From a virus, in IMG/VR virus record IMGVR_UViG_3300046000_006629, positions 1 through 32,324 of that record: a stretch of 32,324 nt of DNA; one strand, given 5' to 3'. The position numbers and the translations under genes are program-made. The number at the start of each line of letters is the position of its first letter. Within the stretch, counting starts at the first letter, position 1. Below the pieces are notes generated by a model. It saw only the letters and a list, made by a program, of their open reading frames with translations, had not been told where the DNA came from and did no database searches. Below, piece after piece: positions 24,538-32,316 of this stretch.

Positions 24538-24783
24538 TTATTCGTTATCAATTACAAATTTATTTCCGTTTATATTTACTATATTTTTATTAAAATTTTT
24601 TACACCCCTATATGTTTTTCCATACATTTTAGCGAACTTATTTATGGTCTTCAATCCCAATAAATCAAAACAAAGTATAATTAATTGGACTAAATCTAAA
24701 TCTTTTAAATCATCTGACTCATATTTTTCTTGAACAAAGTATAATAACTTATTGCAATTGCTCGTATTTATTGGTGTTTCCAT
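24538..24783 (-). CDS. small helical protein, unknown function (possible HTH)
   Basis: An 81-aa protein. The N-terminal two thirds are helical (CNKLLYFVQEKYESDD; DLVQLIILCFDLLG), followed by INKFAKMYGKTYRGVKNFNKNI, which has the length and polarity of a helix-turn-helix recognition region, and a short terminal strand (VNINGNKFVIDN). DNA binding is a guess. Its start codon follows the predicted left end of the inserted cassette; before that insertion it would have followed the 110-aa gene after about 34 bases. Confidence 0.55.
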   Translation of the reverse strand: METPINTSNCNKLLYFVQEKYESDDLKDLDLVQLIILCFDLLGLKTINKFAKMYGKTYRGVKNFNKNIVNINGNKFVIDNE

Positions 24784-24823
24784 TGGTATAATAAATTATA
24801 TTGATGTTATATACAAGTTATCT

Positions 24824-25057
24824 TCAATTGCTACTATTTTCTTCTAAATAACGTTTTTTAAACTCTGAGTAATGTTTTTTTACTGTCTTGCTTTCTAATT
24901 TGTTATTTGGCATATTTAAAATATGTTTAGTAAAATGACAAGCCAAAAAATCACTTTCTCTAATTTGCTTGTCAAACAATTTTTGTATTTCGTAATTTGC
25001 TTTTTCACTCGTTCCGTACTGATGATGGATTTTTTGTAATTTGTCTTGAATATTCAT
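24824..25057 (-). CDS. cassette-borne small protein, unknown function
   Basis: A 77-aa protein from the ATG at 25057; a TTG at 25081 would add eight residues. Its TGA stop lies almost at the left junction of the predicted cassette. The product starts NIQDKLQKIHHQYGTSEKAN, is mostly helical and charged, and holds a C-H pair (FLACHFTKHILNM) and a lysine-rich end (KTVKKHYSEFKKRYLEEN). No known domain is recognised. It is the only ORF of note in the cassette. A near-consensus promoter (TATCTTTC) overlaps the attC R'' box about 27 bases upstream, so it could be expressed on its own. Cassette genes are often adaptive, including phage-defence types, but nothing in the sequence shows that here. Confidence 0.6.
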   Translation of the reverse strand: MNIQDKLQKIHHQYGTSEKANYEIQKLFDKQIRESDFLACHFTKHILNMPNNKLESKTVKKHYSEFKKRYLEENSSN

Positions 25058-25083
25058 AATATTTAGTTTTAAAACCCACAACT

Positions 25084-25091
25084 GAAAGATA
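25084..25091 (-). promoter_or_regulatory. weak promoter candidate for the cassette ORF
   Basis: On the minus strand TATCTTTC differs from TAnnTTTG only at the last base. It overlaps the attC-like R'' box and lies 27 bases upstream of the ATG at 25057. Confidence 0.3.
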
Positions 25092-25220
25092 ACAAGTGTT
25101 TGCCGTCAGTGGCAGGCTTGGGTTATATCCGAGATATTTCGGCTTATTTAATGTTTTTTACTATTTTGTTGTTTTCGTTCTTTAATTTTGCCACCGAACG
25201 GCAAGCACTCGAACGTTAGC
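25086..25220 (+). repeat. attC-like imperfect inverted repeat
   Basis: Outer boxes GATAAC (25088-25093) and GTTAGC (25215-25220) pair at five of six bases. After an asymmetric unpaired spacer (1 against 5 bases), AGTGTTTGCCGT (from 25095) pairs with ACGGCAAGCACT (ending 25210), with one G-T pair. Then a one-base bulge is followed by CAGTGGC/GCCACCG with one mismatch. The terminal loop is about 75 bases and holds a small CCGA...TCGG hairpin. R box, spacer, L stem, extrahelical base and variable terminal structure are the architecture of integron attC sites, and the invariant AAC and GTT triplets are present. The R boxes do not fully fit RYYYAAC/GTTRRRY. Confidence 0.55.
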
Positions 25221-29499: not shown

Positions 29500-29667
29500 A
29501 TACCTACACCTATCTTCGTCTCTCCGAAGCGTCAAGCCTACTACGATTTACAGCCTTATTATGAGTTATAGGTTTCGTTAAGCTGTAATTGAAACGACCA
29601 TCGCAGTGTCCGACACTATGGCTTCTGTAGGGATTTCTTTAAAACAAAACCCTTTGTACTTTATTAG
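29500..29667 (-). ncRNA. possible structured noncoding RNA downstream of the tRNAs
   Basis: No convincing ORF is seen. On the minus strand several stems can form in order: GGGTTT/AAA(T)CCC after the tRNA; CCAT + AGTG/CACT + ATGG (paired around 29598-29621); TTACAGC/GCTGTAA (29588-29582 with 29554-29548, seven bases perfect); and CTTCG/CGAAG (29529-29514). It is transcribed in line with the tRNAs and ends at the hairpin at 29482-29499. I do not recognise the family. Large phage RNAs such as GOLLD and ROOL also sit next to tRNA genes, but no homology is claimed. Confidence 0.4.
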
Positions 29668-29742
29668 TGTCCGCAGTAAGGCTCGAACTTACGACTTACG
29701 GTTTATTAAACCAGTTACTCTGACCAACTGAGTTATGCGGAC
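29668..29742 (-). tRNA. tRNA, apparent anticodon AAU, bulged anticodon stem
   Basis: Full cloverleaf on the minus strand: acceptor GTCCGCA/TGCGGAC (seven pairs), D arm ACTC/GAGT with loop AGTTGGTCA, T arm GTAAG-TTCGAGC-CTTAC, discriminator A, no encoded CCA. The anticodon arm pairs fully only if one U is bulged (AC-U-GGT with ACCGT), giving the loop TTAATAA with U33 and A37, so the anticodon is AAU (29705-29707), formally Ile. The D and T arms and the surrounding string AACTG...GTCGT resemble tRNA-Asn. Read without the bulge, one pair is lost. Identity is therefore uncertain. Confidence 0.75.
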
Positions 29743-29877: not shown

Positions 29878-30007
29878 TAGTCAGGAAAGGATTCGAACCT
29901 TTATGATAACTTATGAGTTGGACTTTCACCGTGTTTTTCGGGGTTACTCTATGTTATCTTTACTATTAACCCTTATTCATACGTCTAACCAATTCCGCCA
30001 CCTGACT
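29878..30007 (-). tRNA. tRNA-Leu-like gene with a long insertion between D and T arms
   Basis: On the minus strand: acceptor AGTCAGG/CCTGACT (seven pairs), then the Leu-type start TGGCGGAATTGGTTAGACG with its D arm, and a T arm AAAGG-TTCGAAT-CCTTT, discriminator A. Total length is about 130, against about 85 for tRNA-Leu. The excess lies between D and T arms. TATGA (29981-29977) can pair with TCATA (29916-29912) as an anticodon stem, leaving 60 bases where seven are expected; this would mean an insertion of about 53 bases in the loop. Alternatively GATAAC/GTTATC forms a huge variable arm. The anticodon cannot be read. Confidence 0.6.
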
Positions 30008-31725: not shown

Positions 31726-32316
31726 CTATAAGCCCAACTCTTGTTTCTGTTGCTCTGTTACATCATACTTACTGAGCATAGCAATTGTTGCCTCTCTGTC
31801 TTTCTTTAATGCCTCCTTAACCTTAGACAAATCACTTATGGTTGGTTTCTTAGGGGTAGGTGCTTCTGCTTTACTAGGCTTTGTAACCTCCGTAGGCTTA
31901 CGGTTAGGGTTGTCAATATCATCCTCATCTGTAGATATATGGAAGTACTTAAGCAAGAAGTATCTCTCTGCGTATGTTAGTGCTGAACCAAGCCCCTTCT
32001 CAAATTCGTTGAACCCATTTGCTCCAAACATATTTTCATCTCTTTCTCCAGTCTCTGAATCAATCCAGGTAAACTTCATCATTACCTTTGACAACACTTC
32101 TGTTTTACTAGCACCCTTAGAATTTAGGTAGTCTATCCTATCATTGTCAATACTTAATACTTCTTGTTTAAGGATAAGACCGTACTCGTTCATTATTGGC
32201 TTTATGTGTTCCAATACCTTGCTACCAGTTACATACTTATAATTAAAAGAAGATTTATCTTTTCCAAGACCATTTACTTGTTTTTGAATTTCTAATAGTT
32301 TTTGAAAGATGTTCAT
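31726..32316 (-). CDS. erf: ERF-family single-strand annealing protein
   Basis: A 196-aa protein. The N-terminal 130 residues fit the ERF superfamily: FQKLLEIQKQV, then FNYKYVTGSKVLEHIKPIMNEYG, then LSKVMMKFTWIDSETGE, and the signature GLGSALTYAERYFLLKYF followed by DEDDID. A Pro/Lys-rich linker (KPTEVTKPSKAEAPTPKKP) leads to a small helical C-terminal domain. ERF proteins anneal complementary single strands in phage recombination. It is the most upstream gene of the leftward block in this window. Its start lies eight bases from the window edge, so its promoter is not seen. Confidence 0.85.
   Translation of the reverse strand: MNIFQKLLEIQKQVNGLGKDKSSFNYKYVTGSKVLEHIKPIMNEYGLILKQEVLSIDNDRIDYLNSKGASKTEVLSKVMMKFTWIDSETGERDENMFGANGFNEFEKGLGSALTYAERYFLLKYFHISTDEDDIDNPNRKPTEVTKPSKAEAPTPKKPTISDLSKVKEALKKDREATIAMLSKYDVTEQQKQELGL

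Follow-up and report, generated by a model that had tools for sequence, protein, structure and literature searches.

An integron-type gene cassette at an attI-like site in a phage genome and related cassette arrays in Flavobacterium

The question raised by this locus is how a segment with the anatomy of an integron gene cassette came to lie in the early operon of a phage that has no integrase of its own. The window, which is the whole stretch of 32,324 nucleotides analyzed here, is a 32-kb IMG/VR metagenomic contig (IMGVR_UViG_3300046000_006629) from a phage, apparently of the Bacteroidota group, that encodes virion proteins together with a primase/helicase and an Erf-like annealing protein. 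The original prediction described a single inserted cassette with an attC site and held that such a cassette in a lytic-type phage, with no integrase in view, would be unusual. The reading that we favor, with a probability of about 0.8, is that the segment is one Bacteroidota integron cassette, site-specifically inserted at an attI-like site of the phage between two early genes.

The 398-bp unit at 24818–25215 is one complete integron-type cassette lying between phage genes for 81- and 110-residue proteins. It has G^TT edges and complementary ends and reads, on the plus strand, TTATCTT-(inverted gene)-AAGATAAC-hairpin-G. The R boxes, asymmetric spacer, L stem, and loop of the attC site are all where the prediction had placed them within 25086–25220. 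The R'' box, AAGATAAC (25086–25093, plus strand), is followed on that strand by a 1-nt spacer (A) and by the hairpin (25095–25209, plus strand), which was defined by a covariance model and compensatory changes and consists of a 19-nt left arm (25095–25113), a large loop, and a 20-nt right arm (25190–25209), with one bulge and mismatches. A 5-nt spacer, CGAAC (25210–25214), precedes the R' box, G^TTAGC (25215–25220, plus strand), which forms the right edge of the unit and whose TTA doubles as the stop codon for the phage gene upstream. The R' half shifted to the left end by the insertion, GTTATCTT, lies in the left junction G^TTATCTT (24817–24824, plus strand), and this junction is, as predicted, the exact complement of the R'' box. 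Removal of 24818–25215 in silico leaves ATATACAAG|TTAGC, with the stop codon of the 110-residue gene kept and the operon restored. All defining elements of an attC site are present: the R'' and R' boxes, an AAC...GTT core, and an inner stem that is imperfect and has unpaired features.

The cassette gene (24824–25057, minus strand) encodes a 77-residue protein from an ATG at 25057. Both its start and its orientation differ from the earlier description, the gene being on the strand opposite to that usual in cassettes; a gene that reads toward its attC is the usual arrangement and not a strictly defining one. The reading frame is real, as 17 synonymous and only 2 nonsynonymous changes separate it from the copy in phage L008. 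That copy lies in an array, with the same ends as the window cassette, and a cassette in a chromosomal array of F. gelidilacus (L013) carries a homologue. Pfam and PHROG searches gave no match to the protein, and a plasmid search with the cassette gave chance matches only. The upstream phage gene (25216–25548, minus strand; 110 residues, phrog_38150) is 49.5% identical to gp6 of Polaribacter phage P12002L, and the downstream gene (24538–24783, minus strand) encodes an 81-residue protein of phrog_18952.

In a BLAST search with the region, the hairpin alone was recovered: it matches over its whole length, at 88% identity, in 34 records of "Moomin" phages of Flavobacterium, and the flanks in these records are unrelated. 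The Moomin genomes contain long head-to-tail series of such hairpins with single genes between them. A scan for the architecture AAC-5 nt-stem-loop-stem-1 nt-GTT identified 8–14 sites per Moomin phage, one in the 32-kb window, and none in shuffled sequence. Among the 21 pairs in an alignment of 35 sites, 14 show compensatory change. A covariance model trained on these 35 sites, including that of the window, has a single match in the window (25089–25218, minus strand) at 83.8 bits (E 1.7e-13), far above background. The folding energy of the window hairpin does not by itself stand out (z −1.3 and −1.9), which is what one would expect of a site whose large loop is unpaired. When the hairpin is folded in circular form, the minus strand has −21.1 kcal/mol versus −16.0 kcal/mol and, with DNA parameters, in 32 of the 35 sites the modeled strand gives the more stable fold of the two, as expected if that strand is the bottom strand. 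We infer that the minus strand of the window, which is the phage coding strand, corresponds to the attC bottom strand. The hairpin family is absent from Rfam, and in the window Rfam reported tRNA matches only. One of these (29878–30007, minus strand; RF00005, 34.1 bits) is spread over 130 nt and was not called by ARAGORN; it lies close to a normal tRNA-Ile (aat) at 29667–29742 and is possibly a tRNA carrying an insertion of ~55 nt.

The units of the family also obey a rule at their ends. The first bases after a hairpin complement the last bases before the next one, usually over 9–10 bases that are followed by a fixed mismatch. Complementarity between R' and R'' across the gene extends over 8 bases in the window, and 9–10 are typical of phage and host arrays. 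In a set of 58 distinct cassettes, the ends are identical over at least 7 bases in 84%, and in 10% of mismatched pairs. The linkage between gene and hairpin is loose. The 77-residue gene is paired with a different hairpin at each of three places, and phages with another gene share the window hairpin (window 25095–25209; L018 8475–8602; L008 2854–2980; L013 4829–4953). Exchange of cassettes at one end does not account for these inconstant pairs. In some hairpins the beginning of the next gene is encoded within the loop and distal arm (L009 2948–3135 and 4714–4901; L018 8188–8314); the N termini encoded in this way belong to a protein resembling the 77-residue protein and to DNA methyltransferases, and recombination could therefore swap N termini.

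A hairpin that lies just upstream of a gene in the transcript, and that folds better on the phage coding strand, might serve the small gene as a transcription terminator or regulatory RNA instead of being a site of recombination. We regard this as very improbable because there is no compact G+C stem with a T-run, the same hairpin is mostly on the other side of the gene in host arrays, and the complementary ends, the whole-unit indels, and the linked recombinase described below would all be left unexplained.

Movement of whole units can be seen among near-identical isolated Flavobacterium phages. In six comparisons, indels of entire units are cut at the same point, an AAC|GTT edge: mumin6-1/6-3 (506 bp), sniff9-1/9-2 (439 bp), snork6-1/6-2, mumin6-1/filifjonk9-1, snusmum6-1/9-1, and hemulen6-1/snork6-1. 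In all six pairs the unit boundary coincides with the AAC junction at a gene's 3' end, which identifies the mobile unit as a hairpin plus the gene after it and means that the genes are inverted in the canonical attC reading. The alternative of taking the phage coding strand as the cassette top strand was ruled out, because the array edges are at the AAC end and the window gene would lack a following attC. The Moomin arrays terminate at a constant, hairpin-free sequence, and several of the gains and losses are at that end. With the unit edges, the complementary ends, and the presence of the same unit in the arrays of L008 and L013, these indels bear out the prediction of a single inserted cassette. 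Exchange at G^TT is seen in phages that share the hairpin family; for the window phage itself, no true empty-site relative was found, and relatives of the neighboring 110-, 81-, 87-, and 138-residue genes gave no syntenic pair. Relatives of the flanking 110-residue gene do occur without the segment, which is therefore not an unvarying core gene.

The same distribution might have arisen through phage mosaicism, by homologous or single-strand-annealing transfer with no site-specific enzyme acting on phage DNA. The window phage does encode an Erf-like single-strand annealing protein (31726–32316, minus strand), which is a possible alternative route of cassette exchange among phages; it lacks an integrase, and within the family hairpins and genes are partly unlinked. 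Against this, six phage pairs have their units cut at one and the same base, with hairpins that are unrelated in sequence beyond the common R box, and no homology to any array seen flanks the single insertion in the window. Mosaicism is accordingly an improbable account, though not as remote as that of a terminator.

The arrays of the Moomin phages are rich in DNA methyltransferases, and a methyltransferase query identified six more viral contigs that have inverted hairpin arrays, in none of which was an attI-like terminal junction confirmed. No tyrosine recombinase was found in the window phage or in related phage records, in agreement with the prediction. A short tyrosine recombinase is encoded near family hairpins in some viral contigs (L174, L178, and L204), and a few phages or prophages may thus carry an enzyme of their own.

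Bacterial chromosomes contain the same type of cassette. With the covariance model, sites were detected in 50 of 61 Flavobacterium genomes and, in a sample drawn from the whole phylum, in 69 of 198; arrays on Flavobacterium chromosomes comprise up to ~40 cassettes of the same units. In genome G049 the array has 35 detected sites over ~46 kb, and at its end, as at the end of the array in G055, is a gene for a tyrosine recombinase of 347–350 residues. In further neighborhoods of this recombinase family, hairpins were present in 18 of 24, versus 0 of 11 control windows (Fisher p 3e-5); in the other 6 the contig is broken near the recombinase gene or no site was detected. Many draft Flavobacterium genomes have a contig that stops within a few kilobases of the recombinase on the array side (L127, L129, L137, L138, and L141–L146), which probably leaves arrays incompletely assembled and cassette counts too low. 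A Chryseobacterium plasmid, NZ_CP041688 (L179, 8001–16697), encodes the same recombinase with hairpins behind it and is possibly a mobile form of this type of integron. Genes in host cassettes are mostly in the canonical orientation (78 canonical, 8 inverted), versus annotated genes in the Moomin arrays, which are all on the hairpin strand, i.e. inverted.

The array-linked recombinase resembles the integron integrases of NF040815 and TIGR02249, with scores of 203–231 and 184–211 bits, respectively, and retains an IntI-like C-terminal SPLD or SPFD motif, but it falls below the curated TIGR02249 cut-off of 265 bits. Its catalytic patches are separated by 58–59 residues as compared with 100 in IntI1; the ~41 missing residues include the I2 helix. 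This gap of 41 residues is found in every array-linked recombinase examined, and profile alignments skip the same region. The enzyme also has an extra N-terminal region that has no match in Pfam and through which the G051 subfamily reaches 584 residues; a subfamily of ~550–585 residues has a long, apparently repetitive N-terminal region (L148 8610–10364, L147, and L149). A quick tree did not group the array-linked enzymes in a single well supported clade. Among 150 Flavobacterium genomes none had an IntI above the thresholds used (1e-45 and the TIGR02249 cut-off), and the control genomes gave none either. The I2 helix is seen as the acquisition that defines integron integrases and enables recombination of single-stranded attC (PMC7790495).

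The complement of the first R'' box served to locate host attI sites. Their distances after the recombinase stop codon define three groups of loci (102–106 bp, ~150–160 bp, and ~80 bp), and they share the end TATATACAA|GTT or a variant of it; a few loci have no clear site at these distances. The left edge of the window cassette coincides with a site of this kind, TTGATGTTATATACAAG^TT (24801–24819, plus strand), with strand exchange placed between G24817 and T24818. Its 19 bases, TTGATGTTATATACAAGTT, are identical to those of the attI of Flavobacterium genome G051 (L148). In a profile built from 17 host attI sites, which themselves score 8.8–24.9 bits when left out in turn, the left edge (24816|24817) ranks first among ~64,600 positions with 17.7 bits. 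By chance, 1 of 20 simulated windows reached a higher maximum somewhere, so the weight of the argument lies in the top rank falling at the insertion position. The exact attI 17-mer has four matches in other viral contigs, with no hairpin at any of them, and is therefore not diagnostic by itself.

Scattered GTT sites are also known substrates of integrases. The cassette could therefore have entered by integron recombination at a secondary, attG-like GTT, its likeness to attI being accidental, and the fixed anchor at the end of the Moomin arrays, which does not fit the host attI profile (rank 1433), would favor such a site. However, the window junction is the best scoring position of the whole window and shares 19 bases with a host attI, and the terminal array junctions of two other phage contigs score at the very top, with ranks of 1 (G002) and 5 (G001) among 264,000 positions. 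We consider a secondary site unlikely, if marginally less so than mosaicism. The insertion point looks like a real integron attI and not like just any GTT, and the window phage apparently has an attI landing pad of its own and depends on an integrase of the host. Of the components of an integron platform, it has an attI, as judged by sequence, and no integrase gene; the integrase is present in Flavobacterium chromosomes.

At the level of sequence, insertion of an integron cassette at a phage attI draws together the cassette anatomy, a cassette type common to phage and host, whole-unit indels in relatives, a recombinase and an attI at the head of host arrays, and the match between the phage site and attI. 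In the mechanism that we propose, the recombinase would act on the single-stranded hairpin, with the phage coding strand as the bottom strand. It would be supplied in trans by the infected host, since the window and related phage records encode no tyrosine recombinase. Circular cassettes released from host or phage arrays would enter the phage attI during infection. The polarity of insertion would be fixed, with the phage attI facing against the phage operon, and only cassettes with genes inverted relative to attC would then be read by the phage promoter. This would explain why phage arrays hold inverted cassettes only, and inverted genes would presumably be of advantage to the phage.

Clusters of attC sites without an integrase (CALIN) have been reported in virulent phages including Polaribacter phage P12002L, and one P12002L attC was recombined by IntI1 (Qi et al. 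2023, PMC9892861). The occurrence of cassettes in virulent phages had therefore been published before, which amends the expectation that it would be unusual. The P12002L hairpins are of the same type, with the same spacing and end-complementarity rule, so that the IntI1 result is the one experimental, if indirect, line of evidence for such sites; this phage also encodes a relative of the window 110-residue gene. Like the window, the phage CALIN in that report have attC cassettes and no integrase, and their genes are often DNA methyltransferases. The window differs in its single cassette, a CALIN having at least two attC sites as the Moomin phages and L008 and L009 do, and in an insertion point that resembles a host attI. 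Neither Flavobacteri- nor Bacteroid- occurs in the text of that report, and the passages considered here describe no host integron for these sites.

The Flavobacterium arrays share with the sedentary chromosomal integrons of Vibrio and Xanthomonas long series of one-gene cassettes, attC hairpins, an attI beside a tyrosine recombinase, and an exchange point at G^TT. They differ in a recombinase that lacks the IntI-specific insertion, has an extra N-terminal region, and has its 3' end toward the array in most loci, in asymmetric attC spacers of 1 and 5 nt, and in an end complementarity of 9–10 bases followed by a fixed mismatch. Within the same broad group, the sections of the IntegronFinder 2.0 survey that we drew on name one complete integron in Bacteroidetes proper, that of Salinibacter ruber M1, and do not mention arrays of the Flavobacterium type (PMC9024848), although our model finds sites in about one-third of the genomes sampled from the phylum. 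The open-licence literature yielded no report of integrons in Flavobacterium, and earlier reports in subscription journals are possible; within that literature, the phage attI, the integrase without the insertion, and the inverted orientation look new.

Knowledge of integrons is built on Proteobacteria. We think it probable, with less confidence than for the window insertion, that Bacteroidota have a widespread second integron lineage with an integrase that lacks the I2 helix, and that their phages, equipped with attI pads and lacking an integrase, use the host enzyme in trans and collect a separate pool of inverted cassettes, comprising DNA methyltransferases and small genes, that serves the phage. 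With an array-linked recombinase that has no I2 helix, the requirement for this helix becomes directly testable. An attI-bearing phage would be a gene-collecting platform that borrows host machinery, and the match between phage and host sites suggests that such phages gain new genes through the gene-capture enzyme of the host. In Moomin phages, the lack of one methyltransferase accompanies poor plating on one host (PMC7077304), and a phage attI would offer a route to shuffle anti-restriction genes.
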